A stretch of 64,000 bases of DNA from Paenibacillus sp. 1781tsa1 (GTDB taxonomy: Bacteria > Bacillota > Bacilli > Paenibacillales > Paenibacillaceae). Both the position numbers and the translations under genes were made by a program. Positions 47,863-57,651 of the stretch are shown piece after piece. Location of the stretch: contig NZ_JAMYWY010000001.1 of the NCBI RefSeq assembly GCF_024159265.1, positions 310,001-374,000 of the forward strand, written 5' to 3'. The notes beneath the pieces were generated by a model, which was not told the origin of the DNA, ran no database searches, and saw only the letters and a list, made by a program, of their open reading frames with translations. Each line of letters begins with the position of its first letter. The stretch's first letter is position 1.

Positions 47863-47936
47863 GGGCCCTTAGCTCAGTTGGTTAGAGCGCACCTCTGATA
47901 AGGGTGAGGCCGGTGGTTCGAGTCCACCAGGGCCCA
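47863..47936 (+). tRNA. tRNA-Ile(GAT)
   Basis: Same sequence as the first tRNA of cluster 1; no CCA encoded. Confidence 0.96.
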
Positions 47937-47970
47937 TAGCAAGACCACAACAAGAAATAAACCAGAGTAT

Positions 47971-48046
47971 GGGGCCATAGCTCAGCTGGGAGAGCGCCTG
48001 CCTTGCAAGCAGGAGGTCAGCGGTTCGATCCCGCTTGGCTCCACCA
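47971..48046 (+). tRNA. tRNA-Ala(TGC)
   Basis: Anticodon loop CTTGCAA, encoded CCA. Confidence 0.96.
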
Positions 48047-48047
48047 T

Positions 48048-48123
48048 TCCCTGATAGCTCAGTTGGTAGAGCACTCGACTGTTAATCGAGTTGTCACAGG
48101 TTCGAGCCCTGTTCGGGGAGCCA
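48048..48123 (+). tRNA. tRNA-Asn(GTT)
   Basis: Anticodon loop CTGTTAA. Differs from the cluster 1 copy by one T-loop base (TTCGAGC instead of TTCGAGT). CCA encoded. Confidence 0.96.
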
Positions 48124-48126
48124 TAT

Positions 48127-48218
48127 GGAGAGGTGTCCGAGCTGGCCGAAGGAGCACGATTGGAAATCGTGTAGGCGTCACAAGCGTCTCGAGGGTTCGA
48201 ATCCCTCTCTCTCCGCCA
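48127..48218 (+). tRNA. tRNA-Ser(GGA)
   Basis: Class II tRNA with a long variable arm and anticodon GGA in ATTGGAAAT. CCA encoded. Only in cluster 2, inserted between Asn and Glu. Confidence 0.95.
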
Positions 48219-48234
48219 GATATTTTTTTAGCAA

Positions 48235-48306
48235 GGCCCGTTGGTCAAGGGGTTAAGACACCTCCCTTTCACGGAGGTAACAGGGGTTCGAATCCCCTAC
48301 GGGTCA
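48235..48306 (+). tRNA. tRNA-Glu(TTC)
   Basis: Anticodon loop CTTTCAC, no CCA encoded. Its 3' tail is repeated at 48401-48417. Confidence 0.95.
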
Positions 48307-48400
48307 TAGCAATACCTATTGCTTCAACAAGGGATGAGAATTCCAAAGGTTCGTCGGAGGATGTACTTCGTTAGCAACTGCTTCGCAGTCTCGAAAGAGT

Positions 48401-48417
48401 ATCCCCTACGGGTCATA
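48401..48417 (+). repeat. Duplicated 3' tail of tRNA-Glu
   Basis: ATCCCCTACGGGTCATA repeats 48292-48308 at a distance of 109 bases. The intervening segment matches that of cluster 1 but lacks the right arm of its hairpin. Confidence 0.85.
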
Positions 48418-48421
48418 ATAT

Positions 48422-48497
48422 GGAGGCTTAGCTCAGCTGGGAGAGCATCTGCCTTACAAGCAGAGGGTCGGGGGTTCGATCCCCTCAGCCTCCACCA
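48422..48497 (+). tRNA. tRNA-Val(TAC)
   Basis: Anticodon loop CTTACAA, encoded CCA. Confidence 0.96.
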
Positions 48498-48515
48498 TAA
48501 CACTTTTAATAACGA

Positions 48516-48589
<74 letters not shown>

Positions 48590-48614
48590 TTAACTTTCCT
48601 TGAGAAAGTACTAT

Positions 48615-48692
48615 GGAACCGTGGTGTAGTTGGCCTAACATGCCTGCCTGTCACGCAGGAGATCGCGGGTTCGAATCCCGTCGGTTCCGCCA
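48615..48692 (+). tRNA. tRNA-Asp(GTC)
   Basis: Anticodon loop CTGTCAC, encoded CCA. Confidence 0.96.
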
Positions 48693-48714
48693 TTTTTAAT
48701 TAAATATACACCTT

Positions 48715-48790
<76 letters not shown>

Positions 48791-48887
48791 TTTTTAGTAT
48801 TTACATCTGAATTTGTAATCGAATGTATATTATAGATACAGTTGTTAATACTAAGATACTCTTAGTGGATGAATGGCTTACTCTATG

Positions 48888-48963
48888 GCGATCGTGGCGA
48901 AGTGGTTAACGCACCGGTTTGTGGATCCGGCATTCGGGGGTTCAATTCCCCTCGATCGCCCCA
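48888..48963 (+). tRNA. tRNA-His(GTG)
   Basis: Anticodon GTG in TTTGTGGAT; acceptor GCGATCG/CGATCGC with C73 and encoded CCA. G at 48887 can serve as the G-1 typical of tRNA-His. Confidence 0.95.
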
Positions 48964-48974
48964 TGATTTTTTAA

Positions 48975-49049
48975 TGGGGATTAGCCAAGCGGTAAGGCAA
49001 CGGACTTTGACTCCGTCATGCATAGGTTCAAATCCTATATCCCCAGCCA
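48975..49049 (+). tRNA. tRNA-Gln(TTG)
   Basis: Anticodon loop CTTTGAC, acceptor TGGGGAT/ATCCCCA, encoded CCA. Only in cluster 2. Confidence 0.95.
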
Positions 49050-49061
49050 TTTCATTATTTT

Positions 49062-49137
49062 GAGTCATTAGCTCAGTTGGTAGAGCACCTGACTTTTAAT
49101 CAGGGTGTCGAAGGTTCGAGCCCTTCATGACTCACCA
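49062..49137 (+). tRNA. tRNA-Lys(TTT)
   Basis: Anticodon loop CTTTTAA, encoded CCA. Confidence 0.96.
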
Positions 49138-49146
49138 TTATATTTT

Positions 49147-49234
<88 letters not shown>

Positions 49235-49242
49235 TATGTTTT

Positions 49243-49317
49243 GCGGAAGTGGCTCAGCGGTAGAGCATCGCCTTGCCAAGGCGAGGGTCGCGGGTTCGAT
49301 TCCCGTCTTCCGCTCCA
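49243..49317 (+). tRNA. tRNA-Gly(GCC)
   Basis: Anticodon loop TTGCCAA, encoded CCA. Confidence 0.96.
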
Positions 49318-49323
49318 ATATTT

Positions 49324-49400
49324 GCGCCCTTAGCTCAGCTGGATAGAGCGTTTGACTACGAATCAAAAGGCCGGGAGTTCGAATCTCTCAGGGCGCGCCA
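49324..49400 (+). tRNA. tRNA-Arg(ACG)
   Basis: Anticodon loop CTACGAA, encoded CCA. Confidence 0.96.
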
Positions 49401-49416
49401 TTATTTTCATACGTAT

Positions 49417-49490
49417 CGGGATGTAGCTCAGCTTGGTAGAGCACCTGGTTTGGGACCAGGGGGTCGCATGTTCAAATCGTGTCATCCCGA
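49417..49490 (+). tRNA. tRNA-Pro(TGG)
   Basis: Anticodon TGG, no CCA encoded. Confidence 0.95.
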
Positions 49491-49502
49491 TTTTTTTATT
49501 TT

Positions 49503-49573
49503 GCGGGTGTAGTTCAATGGTAGAACTTTAGCCTTCCAAGCTAATAGCGTGGGTTCGATTCCCATCACCCGCT
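49503..49573 (+). tRNA. tRNA-Gly(TCC)
   Basis: Anticodon loop CTTCCAA, no CCA encoded. Last gene of cluster 2. Confidence 0.95.
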
Positions 49574-49689: not shown

Positions 49690-49730
49690 AAAGCTCCTCT
49701 TTCTACGATGCACGCAGGAAGAGGAGCTTG
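49690..49730 (-). terminator. Terminator of the secreted CYTH-like gene
   Basis: AAGCTCCTCTTTC and GGAAGAGGAGCTT form a 12-bp stem. Read on the minus strand it is followed by TTTTGTCTTTCTT. Confidence 0.8.
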
Positions 49731-49751: not shown

Positions 49752-50618
49752 TTAATATCTTTCAAGAATCGTCTGTGTCTTCAAGCCATCCGCAGGAATC
49801 AGCCAGTTGTTGTTCTCCAGCAATTGCAGCAGTTGGGTACGCAGTCCGGATACAGCTACAGCATCATCGGTTTTGAAAGAGACCTCTACGATATTCTCAA
49901 TACCTGTACCTGCTGCGTCACGGATCGGCCATACTTCGAGTGTAAGCTCTTGACCATTCCATGTACCTTCATAACGTTGGAATGTGATAGGGCCATATGC
50001 ACGGGATTGCGTCAGTTGTTGCTTGCCCCAGTTGGAGGCAGACCAGTTTTTCAATTTGCCAGGGAGCTTGTCCAGTAACATGTTCAAGGCTTCTTGCTCT
50101 GAAGGAAGCTGAACACCTGTTGCTTGGGTATCGACTTTTTTGGTGTTGGAGAAGCTTAGCGTTTGTTTGCCGTATCCCCAATCAATCTCAGCCTCGTAAT
50201 TATCATCTGATTTATCGAATCCTTCTTGGTTAGCTAGTGTCAGCGCTGCGTTGATATCACCATTAATGATAGGGTACCGTTTTTTGTAGGTCAGTTCGTA
50301 GTTGTTTTTATCATCCTTCTTGCGAAAACGAACATTCCATCCTTGCTCATCCAGTCCGAGCGCATTGGTGTCAAAGTACTCTGCGTTAATGTTTCTTGGC
50401 GTGGAACTCAGGCCGAGGGTCTGAATCACTTCACTGCGTGGTGTCCCATCTGTATTGAGCACGAGTTTTGGCTTGGCCAGAAACTTCACTTCATAAGCAG
50501 GAACGGCATTGGCAGCAGCTGAAGCCTGGGGTGCTCCCAGAAACGTCAGTCCACTTCCCAATGTTATTATGCTCAGCATGAATGAGGCGGTTACCTTTTT
50601 CCACTTTTTCAAAACCAA
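49752..50618 (-). CDS. Secreted CYTH-like domain protein
   Basis: The product is a 288-residue exported protein. The signal peptide has a KKWKK start, a hydrophobic core (FMLSIITLGSGLTFL) and a likely cut after ASA near residue 35. The mature part resembles the CYTH/triphosphate-tunnel fold: YEVKFLAKPKLVL as first strand, then EYFDTNALGLDEQGWNVRFR, KKDDKNNYELTYKKR and a late YEGTWNGQELTLEVWPIRDA. The classic ExExK metal motif is incomplete (only EVK). A weak family match is therefore possible, and catalysis is doubtful. The ribosome site AGGAGAGTGATT precedes the start. Flanking genes give no functional hint. Confidence 0.7.
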   Translation of the reverse strand: MVLKKWKKVTASFMLSIITLGSGLTFLGAPQASAAANAVPAYEVKFLAKPKLVLNTDGTPRSEVIQTLGLSSTPRNINAEYFDTNALGLDEQGWNVRFRKKDDKNNYELTYKKRYPIINGDINAALTLANQEGFDKSDDNYEAEIDWGYGKQTLSFSNTKKVDTQATGVQLPSEQEALNMLLDKLPGKLKNWSASNWGKQQLTQSRAYGPITFQRYEGTWNGQELTLEVWPIRDAAGTGIENIVEVSFKTDDAVAVSGLRTQLLQLLENNNWLIPADGLKTQTILERY

Positions 50619-50740: not shown

Positions 50741-51667
50741 TTATAGAGGATCAGGGTAATCAGCTATGGGAAATGGGGAAACGTGACTCACCTCTCGCAG
50801 CACTTCTTTGAAGCGGTTTACCTGAACTGAAGGGTGGCGGTCCTTGTTATGTACGGTGTATATATGGCGCGGTGCCTGCTCTCCCGGAATGGGGAGAACC
50901 TGAATGAGCCCGTGCTGCTCCTCCCACTGTACAGCCATCCGTGACATGAACGAGACATGCCCCCCAATTAACACAAGCTGTTTGATTGCTTCCAGGGAAT
51001 CCATCTCCACCGTACTCCGTAAACGAATGTCATGTTGCGCGAGCCATTGGTTGGTTAGTCGCCGAGTACTGGATTCGTTGCCATGTAAGGCAAATGGGAT
51101 CTGAGCAATATGCTCAGGCGTCAATGGTTCCTTCTGGGCCAAACCATGCTGCAAAGAACAGATTAATACCAAATCATCTTCACATAACGTCTCAGCTTGC
51201 AGCGCGGGTCCGACAAACGGTTCCGAAGAGATCACCCCCAGATCAATCTGATGCCGAATTAACATCTCGCGAATAACAGGTGATGGTTTGACGGATAAGA
51301 CGATGCGAATACCAGGGAATTCCTGAGAAAAGGTATTGAGTATGGCGGGCAGCAGATATGTAGCCGGTACATAACTTGCCCCAATGTGCAGAGTGCCCCG
51401 ATAGAGACTGTCATACTCTTTCACAACCCGCCTTGCCTCTTGGGTCAAAGCATTGATTTTGACAGAATAGTGGAGCAGGGCTTGTCCGGCCTCGGTTAAA
51501 AAAGTCTTCCCACTGCGCGATTCAAATAATCGCACACCCATCTCTTCCTCCAATGACTTCATATGAAATGTAACGGTCGGTTGTTTGATTCCCAGTAACT
51601 CGGCCACGCTTGTCATGTGATGATGCTTGTCGATCAGCTCAACAATTTGCAATTTGATCAGATTCAA
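50741..51667 (-). CDS. LysR-family transcriptional regulator
   Basis: The product is a 308-residue regulator. The N-terminal winged HTH reads MTSVAELLGIKQPTVTFHMK then SLEEEMGVRLFESR, followed by a LysR substrate domain from about residue 90 (GTLHIGASYVPATYLLPAIL). TTG start preceded by AAAGGAG at 10 bases. It is divergent from the ABC importer operon at 52074, the classic arrangement for control of the neighbour. The type resembles CysL/YwfK-like regulators. Confidence 0.92.
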   Translation of the reverse strand: MNLIKLQIVELIDKHHHMTSVAELLGIKQPTVTFHMKSLEEEMGVRLFESRSGKTFLTEAGQALLHYSVKINALTQEARRVVKEYDSLYRGTLHIGASYVPATYLLPAILNTFSQEFPGIRIVLSVKPSPVIREMLIRHQIDLGVISSEPFVGPALQAETLCEDDLVLICSLQHGLAQKEPLTPEHIAQIPFALHGNESSTRRLTNQWLAQHDIRLRSTVEMDSLEAIKQLVLIGGHVSFMSRMAVQWEEQHGLIQVLPIPGEQAPRHIYTVHNKDRHPSVQVNRFKEVLREVSHVSPFPIADYPDPL

Positions 51668-51945: not shown

Positions 51946-52073
51946 GAACATCAACAGAATTCATCTAAAAAGTTAATTCCAATTTTACATACAAGACATA
52001 CAACTCGCGAAAGCGGACGTTAGACTGAGAACAGTGCAAGAGATCAAGTAACAGAAGACAGGCAGGGATGCTT

Positions 52074-53090
52074 ATGAAATTAGAGATAACGGGAATTCAA
52101 AAATCATTTAATCAAACACCCGCACTGCTGCCGACAGATCTAACGCTTGAACATGGTAAGTTCACGACACTGCTTGGCCCATCGGGCTGTGGCAAAACAA
52201 CACTGCTCCGTATGTTGGCCGGGCTGGAACAGCCGGATGCGGGGGAGATTCGTGCAGATGGTGAGTATATCTACTCTGCGGCGAAGCGGATTGATATACC
52301 AACACACAAGCGTAATCTGGGCATGGTGTTTCAGGATTTTGCATTATGGCCGCATATGACCGTATATGAAAATGTAGCGTTTGGCCTAAAGGCCGGAAAA
52401 CAGAAATCCGATCTGCGGCAAAAGGTGAACGAAGCCCTTGGTATGGTTCGCCTGCAAGGCATGGAAGATCGATATCCTCATCAGCTGTCTGGTGGACAGC
52501 AGCAACGGGTTGCTTTTGCCAGAGCCGTAGTCGTCAGACCTGGTGTGATCCTGTTCGATGAGCCACTAAGTGCACTGGATGCTGTACTTCGGGAAGAGAT
52601 GCGGATTGAGATGATGTCCTTGGTACGGGATATGGGACTGACTGCGCTGTACGTCACACATGATCAGATTGAAGCGATGTCGATGTCGGATGAGATTGTG
52701 GTGATGCAGAAGGGACGGATATTGCAAAAGGGAAGCCCGGAAACGATCTACTCGGCGCCAAGTGATCCCTATGTCGCTTCGTTTATCGGAAAGTCCAACT
52801 GGCTCACTCCTAATCAATCGATGGTGCGTCCAGAGCATGTCACTTGGAACAAAACAGGTCATGATGATCTGTGTTATCCAGGGACGGTACTTAGTGTCAG
52901 CTATGTAGGTGAGCGTTATGAAGTACAAGTGCAGATGGAAGGGCTGGGCGTATGGACAGCCTATATGAACCAAAGAGTGCGTGTGGGAGAGCGGGTTCAG
53001 CTTCATGTAGCCCCCGAGAGGATATGCCGAATGGACGGTTATGACCACCCGAGTATGAAGCAAAACGAAGCGATCGCAGTGGCATATTAA
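52074..53090 (+). CDS. ABC importer ATP-binding protein (Fe3+/phosphonate type)
   Basis: The product is a 338-residue ATPase of the FbpC/PotA class. Walker A is GPSGCGKTT (35-43), Q-loop FQDFALWPHM, signature LSGGQQQR from residue 138, Walker B VILFDEPLSALD and switch His in YVTHDQIEAM. A C-terminal TOBE-like domain follows (MVRPEHVTW and later strands). The ATG at 52074 is six bases from GGCAGGG; an ATG six bases upstream touches that site. First gene of a four-gene operon with binding protein, permease and MBL/beta-CASP protein. Confidence 0.93.
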   Translation: MKLEITGIQKSFNQTPALLPTDLTLEHGKFTTLLGPSGCGKTTLLRMLAGLEQPDAGEIRADGEYIYSAAKRIDIPTHKRNLGMVFQDFALWPHMTVYENVAFGLKAGKQKSDLRQKVNEALGMVRLQGMEDRYPHQLSGGQQQRVAFARAVVVRPGVILFDEPLSALDAVLREEMRIEMMSLVRDMGLTALYVTHDQIEAMSMSDEIVVMQKGRILQKGSPETIYSAPSDPYVASFIGKSNWLTPNQSMVRPEHVTWNKTGHDDLCYPGTVLSVSYVGERYEVQVQMEGLGVWTAYMNQRVRVGERVQLHVAPERICRMDGYDHPSMKQNEAIAVAY

Positions 53091-53160
53091 ATTGGTGAAC
53101 GAGCACGCAGTTGGAAGCAGGAGTACACATTTTATAAGAAACCAGGGGAGATGGACGAAT

Positions 53161-54234
53161 ATGTTGAATATGAAAACACGGAAAAAGAGCGCAATGCTGT
53201 TATTAACAGCGGTCATGAGTATCAGTTTGTTCGGATGTAGTACAGGGAACACAACCACAGGCAACGCGGCACAACCTGCAGGTGAAGGAAACACAGCAGC
53301 AGCGGCAGAAACAACGAAACCGGCTGGCGGCAAGCTGGTTTTGTACAGTGCTGGCCCACAGAAGCTGGCGGATAACATCGTGAGTGGATTTACAGACAAA
53401 ACAGGGATCGAAGTCGAAATGTTCCAGGGAACGACAGGCAAAATCCTGGCTCGTATGGAAGCTGAGAAGTCCAATCCGGTAGCAGACGTTGTAATCCTGG
53501 CCTCCTTGCCTTCAGCACAGGCTTTGAAAGCCGATGGTTTGACCATGCCTTACCCCGAAGCAGCCAATGCGGACAAGCTGAACAAGGACTGGTCGGATGC
53601 AGAAGGCAACTATTTTAGCAGCAGTGCTTCCGCACTGGGTATTGTGTATAACACCAAACTGGTGTCTACCCCACCAACAAGTTGGGCAGATCTTGCTACG
53701 CCTGTGTGGAAAGATGCAGTGAACATTCCCGACCCTACATTATCAGGTTCAGCACTCGACTTCATCACAGGATACCTGAGCGCGAACGGTGAAAAAGGAT
53801 GGGACCTGCTCAGTGCCTATAAAGCCAATGGCGTAGCGATGGCAGGAGCCAATCAGGAAGCACTTGATCCGGTCATTACGGGTGCCAAAAGCATCGTAGC
53901 GGCAGGTGTGGATTACATGGCGTATTCCTCCAAGGCAAAAGGTGAACCACTGGATATCGTATATCCTGAAGAAGGCACGGTAATCAGCCCAAGACCTGCA
54001 GCAATTCTGAAATCCAGTCCGAATGTAGAGAATGCCAAAGCGTTCATCGACTACTTGTTGTCTGACGAAGCACAGAAGCTCGTTACAGATGCCTACCTAA
54101 TACCGGGCCGCGAAGACATTGAAGCGACTAACCGTACCAATGTGAAGGATATTCCACAACTAAAAGTGGATTGGAACTGGATGAGCGAACATGGCGAAGA
54201 GACTGCGGCGCGTTTCTCCGAGACGTTTAAGTAA
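53161..54234 (+). CDS. ABC transporter substrate-binding lipoprotein (Fe3+/2-AEP type)
   Basis: The product is a 357-residue lipoprotein. Lipobox Cys26 (SLFGC) is followed by a Thr/Ala/Gly-rich linker. The mature part is of the SBP_bac class used for ferric iron, thiamine or 2-aminoethylphosphonate: KLVLYSAGPQKLADNIVSGF, GTTGKILARMEAEKSNPVAD, ALGIVYNTKLV. AGGGGAG precedes the ATG at 53161. The paired tyrosines that bind iron in FbpA are not obvious, so the substrate is left open. Confidence 0.9.
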   Translation: MLNMKTRKKSAMLLLTAVMSISLFGCSTGNTTTGNAAQPAGEGNTAAAAETTKPAGGKLVLYSAGPQKLADNIVSGFTDKTGIEVEMFQGTTGKILARMEAEKSNPVADVVILASLPSAQALKADGLTMPYPEAANADKLNKDWSDAEGNYFSSSASALGIVYNTKLVSTPPTSWADLATPVWKDAVNIPDPTLSGSALDFITGYLSANGEKGWDLLSAYKANGVAMAGANQEALDPVITGAKSIVAAGVDYMAYSSKAKGEPLDIVYPEEGTVISPRPAAILKSSPNVENAKAFIDYLLSDEAQKLVTDAYLIPGREDIEATNRTNVKDIPQLKVDWNWMSEHGEETAARFSETFK

Positions 54235-54334
54235 GTACTTTTGCATAGGCAAACACCGAAAGAAGAACAAGCATAGAGACAATTAGGCAAAAGGAATACC
54301 TGCTGTCTGTGGAAAGTCATGTGAGGTGAACGTA

Positions 54335-56020
54335 GTGAAACCTGTTGTTATGGACAACAACCGTATTTTTCGGAGAGTGGGCGTGATTCTGGCCCTCTTT
54401 CTGCTGACCATAAGTATTGGCGTGCCGCTCTTGCTGATTTTCTGGCAAAGTGTCTATGTGGACGGACAATGGGACTGGATGGCCCCGATTCGCACGATTA
54501 CGGGACATCATCTGTCGGGTGTACTGCTGAATTCCGTCTGGCTTGGTGTCTGCGTGGTGGCGGTAACTACATTGTTGGCACTGCCGCTCGCCTGGATGAT
54601 GGCAAAGACCCGGATGGGCGAACATCGCTGGGTCGATGTAATCCTGATGATTCCATTCATGACTCCGCCGTATATCGGTTCCATGGGATGGATTCTGTTT
54701 ATGCAAAAAGGGGGATACCTCCAGCAATGGATACCCTCATCTGCAAGTTGGAGTGAAATGTTCTTCAGCTTCTGGGGTATGGTGCTCATCATGAGCTTGC
54801 ACCTGTTCCCCTTCTTGTACCTGCTGCTTCGGGATGCATTGATTCGCATCGGTGGCAATCTGGAAGAAGCGGGAGCCGTGCACGGTGCACGTGCAGGGTA
54901 CCGTTTCAGACGCATTATTTTACCCTTGTTGTTGTCGTCCTACGGCATGGGGATCATGCTGGTCTTTGTCAAAACGATTGCGGAATTCGGTACACCGGCA
55001 ACCTTCGGGCGCAAGATTGGCTATTATGTCATGACCTCCGAAATTCATAAGTACATCTCCAGTTGGCCGATTGATTTCGGCAAGGCGACTTCACTGGCAT
55101 CGGTGCTGCTGTCCGTCTGTCTGGTGATGTGGTATATGCAGTCTGCCATGAGCCGAAAATTCACGTATCGTCTGGTGGGTGGCAAAGGGCAACGTTCGAA
55201 GCGATATTCCCTTCGTGGGGGAGCAGGATGGTTGTGCGGGGTGTATCTTGCGATCCTGTTGATCCTGTCGGTAGGTATCCCGTATTTCTCCATCATTGCC
55301 GCTTCGACCATGAAGCTGCGGGGATCGGGACTCGCTTTTGATAATCTCACCTTGGATCATTACAGAGAGCTCTTATCTTGGGGATCGGTGAGTATGAAGG
55401 CCATCGGGAACAGTCTGGGATTATCCCTCGCGGCTTCAACTGTTGCTGTTATTATCGGGACGGGGTTTGCGCTGGCGATCGGCAGATCATCTTCATTCAT
55501 GCAGCGTGTGATTGACTTGTTCAGTCTGTTGCCTAATACGGTCCCAGGTATCGTGATGGTCGTGGGTCTGATTCTCTTCTGGAACTCACCCTGGATGCCA
55601 GTCACGTTGTATAACACCTATGGCATGGTTGTTCTCACGTACGTTGTTCTCTTCTTGCCTTACACCGTGCAGTATGTAAAATCGAGCTTTACCCAGATTG
55701 ACGGAACATTGTTCCAGGCGGGTCAAGTGTTTGGCGGGAAGCCGCTGTATATTCTGCGGCGAATCCTGATCCCATTGATTCTGCCCGGCATGCTGGCGGG
55801 CTGGATGATGACCTTTACGATTGCAACAAGGGAACTGGTGGGTTCGTTGTTGATTCTTCCGCCGTCCATGCAGACGTCGGCTACGTATATTTTTGCCCAA
55901 TTTGAACAAGGTCAAGTGTCGCTCGGAATGGCGATGGCCGTTGTGACTGTAGGCATGACGGTGCTCATGCTGCTTGGAATCGAAATGCTGAATTCAAAGA
56001 GAAAGTGGAATGCATCATGA
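54335..56020 (+). CDS. ABC transporter permease, fused two-domain (FbpB type)
   Basis: The product is a 561-residue permease made of two BPD_transp_1 halves in one chain, about 12 membrane segments. EAA loops are NLEEAGAVHGARAGYRFRRI (about 175-195) and TLFQAGQVFGGKPLYILRRI (about 460-480). I chose the GTG at 54335 because GAGGTG is six bases before it; a GTG nine bases earlier overlaps that site. Its stop overlaps the ATG of the next gene. Confidence 0.92.
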   Translation: MKPVVMDNNRIFRRVGVILALFLLTISIGVPLLLIFWQSVYVDGQWDWMAPIRTITGHHLSGVLLNSVWLGVCVVAVTTLLALPLAWMMAKTRMGEHRWVDVILMIPFMTPPYIGSMGWILFMQKGGYLQQWIPSSASWSEMFFSFWGMVLIMSLHLFPFLYLLLRDALIRIGGNLEEAGAVHGARAGYRFRRIILPLLLSSYGMGIMLVFVKTIAEFGTPATFGRKIGYYVMTSEIHKYISSWPIDFGKATSLASVLLSVCLVMWYMQSAMSRKFTYRLVGGKGQRSKRYSLRGGAGWLCGVYLAILLILSVGIPYFSIIAASTMKLRGSGLAFDNLTLDHYRELLSWGSVSMKAIGNSLGLSLAASTVAVIIGTGFALAIGRSSSFMQRVIDLFSLLPNTVPGIVMVVGLILFWNSPWMPVTLYNTYGMVVLTYVVLFLPYTVQYVKSSFTQIDGTLFQAGQVFGGKPLYILRRILIPLILPGMLAGWMMTFTIATRELVGSLLILPPSMQTSATYIFAQFEQGQVSLGMAMAVVTVGMTVLMLLGIEMLNSKRKWNAS

Positions 56021-57651
56021 TCAAACTTAACGTATGGGGCGGTGCAGGCGAACATGGACGTTCCGCCTATCTTCTGAGCGGGAGCCGGTTTCGCCTTTTG
56101 CTGGATTGTGGTGTCAAAAAAGAAGGCATGGGCCAGTATCCGCTGATTGATCCGGAGATTGTACCACAAGTGGACGCGGTCCTCTTGTCCCACGCCCATG
56201 AGGATCATTCAGTCGCCATCCCATTGCTGTATAAGATGGGCTACCAGGGTGAAGTGTGGACGACAAGGGAGACGAGGGAGCAGTTGGGTACGTATTTTCG
56301 GGCATGGCGCAGCAACATGGAACGAGCAGGACATGTAATACCATATGACAAAGCTGACGAGCTACGTATTCGATACAGGTTCCTGGAAAACGAAGCAGAG
56401 CGAGGCCATTGGTTTGAAATCATACCTGGGGTGGCGGCAGTCTGGGGGCGTAGCGGGCATCTGGCGGGTTCGGTCTGGTTCGGTCTTGAGATGGAGGGCA
56501 AGCGGGTTCTGTACTCCGGCGATTATACGTCGGAGTCTATGCTTCTACAGAATGACGATGTGGCCGACGGATTCCGGCGGGCAGACCTGAATCGCCATAG
56601 CCGCGTATGGGCTGCTCCTGTTCCAATTCAAAGCCTTCAGGATATGTCCAACTCCAACGCGCCCAATGCAAAAACGGATGCGAACAGCGAACAGGCCAGC
56701 GAGTTGGTAATGGGCCAAGCTATGGGACAGACGCTGGCTGATCAAGCAGTATATGCTCAGACCCTTGCTGCTACAGGATCTACCGGATCAGAGACAGCAC
56801 TAGGCTCATCTGCAGTGATACACAGCAACATCCTTACCGAGCAAATGCACATGAGAGAAAGTATAGAAGCTATGGCATCCATGTCTAACTCATACCAGGT
56901 TAAGCTTGATCTGGCGATCGTGGATGCTGCCTATGGTACGGACCAGGATACGCAGGCGGATAAACTGCAACAACTGGAGAGCGCGATCAGTAGTGCGATT
57001 GCTCGGGGGGGCAAGGTGTTATTACCCATGCCTGCGGTGGGCCGCGGCCAGGAGATGATCCTATGGGCACAGCAATGTTTTCAGGACATTCCCATGATTG
57101 TGGAACAGAAACTGGTGGATGGAATGACTCAGTTACATCGTGTTCCCTATTGGCTCAGGAAGGGAGAACTGACTCGGGAAGGTTCGCCTGCGGACAGCAT
57201 CGATCATTTTCTGAGCGGAGAAGGTTGGGCAAAGACATCTACCGAGGAAGAACGTCTGCAGTTGCTGGAACAACATCATGCTTCCCTATGGTTTGTGCCG
57301 GACGGCATGATGCAGTCCTCTCTTGCACGTTGGTATTATGAGAAATGGGCATCTAATGAAAAAAATCTGATTCTGCTCACCGGGCATGTTGCTGCCGGAA
57401 CTTTTGCCGATGAGTTATTGAAAAATCCAGAAGAGTATGGCAAATGTGAAGTTAGGAAATTGCGTTACAAAGTTCATCAGGGTTGGAGGGATGTCGAGCA
57501 GATGTTGGGCCGGATCTCTGCACGTCATACGGTCCTTGTGCATACTGACCTTGTGGAAACGGAAAGGTTGAGACAGGGTTTGCTTGATGAAGGTTCATCT
57601 GCGGAAGCTGATATCTATGCGTTGTCTCCAGGAGATGAGTTATCCTTTTAA
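56017..57651 (+). CDS. Metallo-beta-lactamase/beta-CASP family hydrolase
   Basis: The product is a 544-residue protein in the CPSF/RNase J-like class of metallo-beta-lactamase enzymes. Metal motifs: LLSHAHEDHS, GRSGHLAGS and YSGDYTSES. Beta-CASP-like pieces follow: LAIVDAAYG (motif A Asp), LPMPAVGRGQEMILWAQQ, LLTGHVAAGTFADELL and VLVHTDLVETERL. Residues about 195-290 form a Ser/Ala/Gln/Asn-rich insertion between the metal core and the beta-CASP part. ATG 56017 overlaps the permease stop (ATGA), so it is translationally coupled to the importer. The usual activity is RNA cleavage; a small-molecule or phosphonate substrate is conceivable here (inference). Confidence 0.88.
   Translation: MIKLNVWGGAGEHGRSAYLLSGSRFRLLLDCGVKKEGMGQYPLIDPEIVPQVDAVLLSHAHEDHSVAIPLLYKMGYQGEVWTTRETREQLGTYFRAWRSNMERAGHVIPYDKADELRIRYRFLENEAERGHWFEIIPGVAAVWGRSGHLAGSVWFGLEMEGKRVLYSGDYTSESMLLQNDDVADGFRRADLNRHSRVWAAPVPIQSLQDMSNSNAPNAKTDANSEQASELVMGQAMGQTLADQAVYAQTLAATGSTGSETALGSSAVIHSNILTEQMHMRESIEAMASMSNSYQVKLDLAIVDAAYGTDQDTQADKLQQLESAISSAIARGGKVLLPMPAVGRGQEMILWAQQCFQDIPMIVEQKLVDGMTQLHRVPYWLRKGELTREGSPADSIDHFLSGEGWAKTSTEEERLQLLEQHHASLWFVPDGMMQSSLARWYYEKWASNEKNLILLTGHVAAGTFADELLKNPEEYGKCEVRKLRYKVHQGWRDVEQMLGRISARHTVLVHTDLVETERLRQGLLDEGSSAEADIYALSPGDELSF

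Follow-up and report, generated by a model that had tools for sequence, protein, structure and literature searches.

According to the accessible parts of PMC4641920, two metals are bound in triphosphate tunnel (TTM) proteins: site 1 (E160 in YgiF), which is invariant in the TTM proteins characterised so far, holds the substrate, site 2 (YgiF E4, E6, and E162) activates water, and Vtc4 possesses metal site 1 only, without site 2. The ExExK and strand-8 ExE motifs are defined in the same terms in the accessible text of PMC8233210, in which the proteins AtTTM1/2, lacking both motifs, are reported as pyrophosphate users, the class IV adenylate cyclase CyaB is described with an HF motif before an intact ExExK and a small residue replacing the first Arg in RxR, and the motif of thiamine triphosphatase is given as W/YxRxR. 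Among importer binding proteins, the pyridoxal phosphate binder P5PA grips the phosphate via T37, S147, G148, T149, and S183 (available part of PMC8427247), and AfuA, which binds sugar phosphates and was once named an iron protein too, holds it by S37 and T150 (available part of PMC4546632). No account of an exported CYTH protein was found in the accessible literature, a weak search of titles and the beginnings of abstracts with most subscription papers outside its scope, nor in the accessible parts of PMC7283521 and PMC7793946.

The window, that is, the whole stretch of 64,000 nucleotides of Paenibacillus sp. 1781tsa1 that was analysed, harbours at 49752-50618 (minus strand) a reading frame of 288 codons beginning with TTG, with AGGAG at a suitable spacing, 5 nt 5' of this start. 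The reading frame was confirmed as genuine, since chance is excluded by its conservation, with 23 invariant columns in the 43 rows of alignment A3 and exported members down to 44% identity; a decayed gene was likewise ruled out by these columns and by the 37 invariant ones of alignment A2 (10 rows). On the basis of Pfam, the predicted fold and structure comparison, the 288 aa product is predicted to be an exported CYTH/TTM-fold protein. A candidate terminator at 49691-49729 (minus strand), composed of an 11-bp inverted repeat with a 17-nt loop and a minus-strand T-rich tail, was recognized by eye; the terminator scan found none, and this loop exceeds the loop limit of the scan. A plus-strand array of 17 tRNA genes is located at 47863-49573 and ends some 180 bp short of the CYTH gene, which is convergent with it.

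The N-terminus begins with KKWKK followed by a hydrophobic stretch and ASA before AANAVP, by our own reading a typical Sec signal, and residues 1-34 (50517-50618, minus strand) were assigned to the signal peptide, leaving a mature part of 254 residues. Signal-like N-termini were detected by a simple hydrophobicity test in all 76 parsed relatives (80 tried), and the mature part was free of cysteine in 74 of them. There is thus good support for a protein exported via a Sec-type signal peptide, and the clear Sec signal of the original prediction was borne out. The cytosolic location taken as a trait of TTM enzymes was accordingly not observed, within the limits of this simple test. Four relatives with signal-like N-termini bear extra domains C-terminal to the CYTH domain, of fn3 and CBM6-like type (L205:3480-5147, L206:1931-3622, L207:1029-2738, and L208:1918-3591); fn3 was above and CBM6 below the Pfam cut-off in L205 and L206, the two on which the search was run. 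In L205 and L208 the multi-domain gene lies directly behind a shorter exported CYTH gene.

The protein exceeded the Pfam gathering cut-off for PF01928 (CYTH), with 26.6 versus 23.2 bits and an E value of 6.4e-6, and this profile matched 25 of the 43 family members at E 0.01, the other 18 falling below. No match was obtained in NCBIfam, nor any credible sequence relative in the PDB (best E 0.31 and 0.92 with the protein and its profile as query, respectively). An AlphaFold2 model built from the 43-member alignment A3 reached a pLDDT of 96.6 and a pTM of 0.91. Foldseek retrieved 38 matches at E ≤ 0.001, comprising 35 TTM/CYTH entries and three Mediator Med18-type chains (6w1s, 7emf, and 3c0t). 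With VIA-align, AtTTM3 (5a68) was superposed at Z 14.9 over 193 residues and 3.0 Å, and the Z values were 14.6 for BH2851, 12.7 for YgiF, 10.4 for mouse ThTPase, and 9.7 for Vtc4. A triphosphate-tunnel beta-barrel fold is thus predicted with good support, and by profile and predicted fold the protein is a homologue within the CYTH superfamily. The CYTH-like fold originally proposed agrees with the Pfam match and with this confident predicted barrel, whose top solved matches are TTM proteins; the structure check against ThTPase and VTC4 that had been suggested was run on the predicted model and revealed the tunnel barrel.

A profile-profile match to 12 canonical CYTH rows (probability 94, E 9e-8, mature residues 8-79) paired E43, K45, R97, R99, and K112 with YgiF E6, K8, R56, R58, and K69, respectively. 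The degenerate motif A41-Y-E43-V-K45 (50484-50498, minus strand), aligned to E4/E6/K8 of Escherichia coli YgiF, takes the place of ExExK with its first Glu gone, as anticipated by the original claim of an incomplete metal motif; the pairing of A41 with E4 lies one residue outside the profile-profile match and derives from YgiF-only and forced alignments, the direct YgiF-only alignment being weak (probability 7.6, E 0.005). R97-F-R99 (50322-50330) and T-Y-K112-K-R (50277-50291), both on the minus strand, were located by the profile alignment. A second loss, absent from the original prediction, was detected on strand 8, where E245-V-S247 (49878-49886, minus strand) stands where ExE is expected, in a register that was deduced and not taken from superposed coordinates. 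Forced hhalign paired E245 with YgiF E160 and S247 with E162; in gapless register scoring of 48 family and 14 canonical rows, register 0 was best (0.86, next -7.9), and the stretch after strand 8 scored alone favoured the same register narrowly (-4.1 versus -5.7). The strand-8 half of the mapping is considered good but not proven.

In the 43 rows, position 41 is S in 17, D in 10, N in 8, A in 3, T in 3, G in 1, and Q in 1, and in the 76 loci parsed of 80 named ones tried it is A (27), S (26), D (11), N (8), or T (4); Glu is not found in either set (0/43 and 0/76). E43, K45, R97, R99, K112, E228, E245, S247, and K280 are present in 43/43 rows, the last one (49779-49781, minus strand) at the start of the C-terminal helix according to the model and the alignment, and residue 146 is always acidic (D in 29 rows, E in 14). 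The strand-8 Ser was present in 75/75 pattern-matched loci, plus L102 by eye. As an exception, a distant and apparently signal-less Priestia plasmid protein has an intact E-Y-E-V-K together with the strand-8 Ser. These alignments suggest that two of the three metal-2 ligands (A41 and S247) have been lost and that the site-1 Glu (E245) and the basic tunnel residues have been kept, a pattern from which binding without hydrolysis is predicted.

The protein shares with YgiF, AtTTM3, and the Bacillus CYTH structures BH2851/GBAA_1210 the fold (Z 12.7-14.9), ExK, RxR, the strand-4 Lys, the C-terminal Lys and, in the deduced register, the first Glu of the strand-8 ExE; it differs from them in being exported, in the absence of the first ExExK Glu and of the second ExE Glu, and, compared with most solved single-domain TTM chains (about 175-210 residues), in its longer mature part. 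With the VTC4 tunnel domain it has in common the fold (Z 9.7) and probably a metal site 1 without site 2, as given for Vtc4 in the accessible part of PMC4641920. In contrast to VTC4, it has no SPX or membrane parts, no obvious ATP supply, as it is exported, and no PF09359 match; CYTH was the sole reported match up to an E value of 10, a range in which the HMMER filters drop most weak matches. AtTTM1/2 resemble it in missing both metal motifs (accessible text of PMC8233210), although they are plant two-domain kinase-TTM proteins (7z67), in contrast to the single exported domain of the window protein. No HF motif was found and Arg is present at R97, contrary to CyaB, and in W94-N-V-R97-F-R99 the aromatic residue is off by one from W/YxRxR. 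Since the defining features looked for were absent, the protein is not assigned to the TTM enzymes, AC-IV cyclases, thiamine triphosphatases, or VTC polymerases; on this evidence, it would work like the binding half of a TTM protein.

The original prediction considered the gene in isolation and overlooked the conserved locus to which it belongs. A LysR-family regulator (50741-51667, minus strand) is situated directly upstream on the same strand, followed divergently on the plus strand by a PhnT2-like ABC importer ATPase (52068-53090), a substrate-binding lipoprotein (SBP) of SBP_bac_6 type (53092-54234; profile and structure matches, lipobox by eye), a PhnU2-like two-domain ABC permease (54326-56020), and a metallo-beta-lactamase (MBL)/beta-CASP hydrolase without a visible signal (56005-57651; profile matches). 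The PhnSTU2/AfuABC/P5PA importers are similar in the SBP_bac_6-like binding protein, the ATPase, and the fused permease (PhnU2); the window importer differs from them in that all its components fall far below the NCBIfam cut-offs for PhnS2, PhnT2, and PhnU2 of the 2-AEP importer (SBP 123 versus 393 bits, ATPase 329 versus 458, permease 146 versus 593) and in the addition of the exported TTM-fold protein and the beta-CASP hydrolase to the locus. The hydrolase has 548 aa, versus an open frame of 426 in a Paenibacillaceae MAG (L109), and the alignment of many of its relatives is split in two by a variable region covering approximately residues 190-297.

The LysR neighbour was found in 58 of 80 loci and the complete set of LysR, SBP, permease, and MBL in 57, including 22 of the 42 loci with CYTH identity below 60%; in three of the 80 loci the upstream DNA was short. 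Among 296 genomes, 99 had both CYTH and SBP, 28 CYTH only, 25 SBP only, and 144 neither, the 127 genomes with CYTH including cytosolic paralogues (Fisher p 5e-29, a value that ignores kinship). A beta-CASP match was present in all 124 genomes with SBP. Positions were compared in 62 of the 99 genomes with both genes: the 59 same-contig pairs were all within 7 kb, and the other three were on different contigs. Neither gene strictly needs the other, since CYTH is absent from 25/124 SBP genomes and SBP from 28/127 CYTH genomes, and many distant members, such as those of Undibacterium, L105, and L118, are without an importer nearby.

Other arrangements were also observed. The Paenibacillaceae MAG L109 and Fusibacter (L116) have a co-directional ABC-SBP-permease-MBL-CYTH string. 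In L086 and L095 the string combines SBP, permease, and ATPase genes of diverged sequence (29-48% identity) with a phosphoesterase gene, LysR, and CYTH. The phosphoesterase (L086:6020-6643) lies between the PhnSTU2-like importer and LysR-CYTH, a place taken by beta-CASP in the main type; it gave a Metallophos match and 51 bits for ApaH, below the cut-off of 176, and its solved matches are diadenosine tetraphosphatases, the L095 one being linked to it by BLAST grouping only. In a 49-row tree, of which 19 rows are unlabelled, some owing to contig ends, at least two label changes on well-supported branches are required to account for the main arrangement, which appears in two groups separated with no more than moderate support (85/72, 88/90). 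This pattern implies either an old linkage or more than one origin of it.

Concerning the importer, its binding protein gave 48 solved matches, most of them named iron-binding; the first four were 8x1a, named iron-compound-binding, P5PA, AfuA, and a 2-AEP binder. In the alignment, to which the residue numbers of the P5PA and AfuA papers were transferred through local motifs, the binding protein of the window has Thr, Ser, and Gly at the first three P5PA sites, Ser for T149, and Ala for S183. A small phosphate or phosphonate compound is our best guess for the substrate. Iron is not favoured as cargo, since P5PA and AfuA, the second and third matches, bind phosphate compounds and AfuA formerly bore the name of an iron protein. 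Moreover, in our reading of the alignment with the FbpA-like chain 1y4t, the binding protein has Asp in place of the first Tyr of a pair that presumably holds iron. The SBP_bac_6 gene 3' of CYTH in Cohnella (L111) was set aside as belonging to another branch, with 5t1p as its sole solved match at E 1e-10.

Of 392 genomes from the order, 166 contained family matches, paralogues counted, and a match was present in 33 of the 59 relatives searched, own genome counted. Among the best 80 of 101 named relatives, Paenibacillus amylolyticus, Paenibacillus sp. OVF10, and Paenibacillus xylanexedens reached 97% identity, and members outside Paenibacillus (Fusibacter and Undibacterium) were also included. 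Two Undibacterium members and one Burkholderiales MAG (L108, L113, and L114) were placed among Paenibacillus members in the tree (group support 85/72), a placement that suggests horizontal transfer. The window protein is the sole Pfam CYTH match of its own genome, which elsewhere has one PP_kinase and one VTC-domain match. CYTH paralogues without a signal, either fused to a histidine phosphatase or next to one, were detected at L032:3803-5122 (minus strand), L033:3995-5264, and L209:2127-3509; those of L032 and L209 adjoin S8 peptidases, the Priestia plasmid relative (L211) is likewise among peptidases, and the L033 copy is interrupted. Phage records gave no match to the CYTH protein, and two plasmid records contained distant relatives (34% and 30% identity), not the window locus; phage or plasmid cargo was rejected on these grounds.

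Taken together, an exported, probably non-hydrolytic phosphate-chain binder serving the neighbouring importer of a phosphate compound is the main reading, to which we assign a probability of roughly 0.5. The substrate-holding half of the TTM fold would be maintained by K45, R97, R99, K112, and the putative metal-1 Glu E245, and a phosphate-chain ligand, either inorganic oligo- or polyphosphate or an organic polyphosphate, would be bound outside the membrane uncleaved, probably as a metal complex. The protein may then concentrate this ligand, or a compound derived from it, and present it to the adjoining PhnSTU2/AfuABC-like importer; the imported molecule would become the substrate of the cytosolic hydrolase of the locus (beta-CASP or, in two species, the ApaH-like phosphoesterase), and control of the set would fall to the adjacent LysR. 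That such a secreted TTM catcher of polyphosphate or organic polyphosphates constitutes the extracellular capture component of a dedicated ABC import locus under LysR control with a swappable cytosolic hydrolase (beta-CASP or ApaH-like) is advanced tentatively, as a possibility with the odds against it.

The extracellular anion binder without hydrolysis put forward in the original prediction agrees with the export, the tunnel fold, and the metal-ligand loss deduced from sequence and prediction, and with the pattern of kept and lost residues; its non-hydrolytic part is less firm, since motif loss alone is no proof of lost catalysis, given the pyrophosphate use of the motif-less AtTTM1/2 (accessible text of PMC8233210) and the acidic residue 146 in all rows. 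The main rival, judged rather improbable, is accordingly an exported enzyme whose active site has been rebuilt and which would hydrolyse extracellular pyro- or oligophosphate by means of other metal ligands and feed phosphate to the cell. E43, E228, and E245 are invariant, the acidic residue 146 could rebuild a metal site, and ApaH-like and beta-CASP hydrolases are encoded nearby in some or many loci, but two of the three deduced metal-2 ligands are gone in 43/43 rows. The fn3 and CBM6-like domains of related exported proteins, and the absence of an importer near many distant members, would fit a binder of another polyanion at the cell wall (teichoic acid, phosphorylated polysaccharide, or RNA 5' ends) not involved in uptake; linkage to one importer type in 57/80 loci and in 59/59 same-contig pairs, distant family branches included, argues against such a role, which we consider improbable. 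A TTM-fold scaffold without a small ligand, similar to Mediator Med18/Med20 and perhaps a partner of the binding protein, would explain the match of the Med18-type chains (Z about 8) but not the invariant tunnel Lys and Arg residues, for which a scaffold has no need, and appears very improbable.

Extracellular phosphate chains are a possible source of phosphorus in soil, and to our knowledge their capture by bacteria has been little studied. If phosphate chains are indeed bound by the CYTH protein, a mainly enzymatic fold would have been turned into a secreted module for capture that has an importer of its own, and the CYTH protein could lead to the substrate of this importer. This reading, if true, would also call for caution in naming such proteins adenylate cyclases or triphosphatases from a CYTH match alone.
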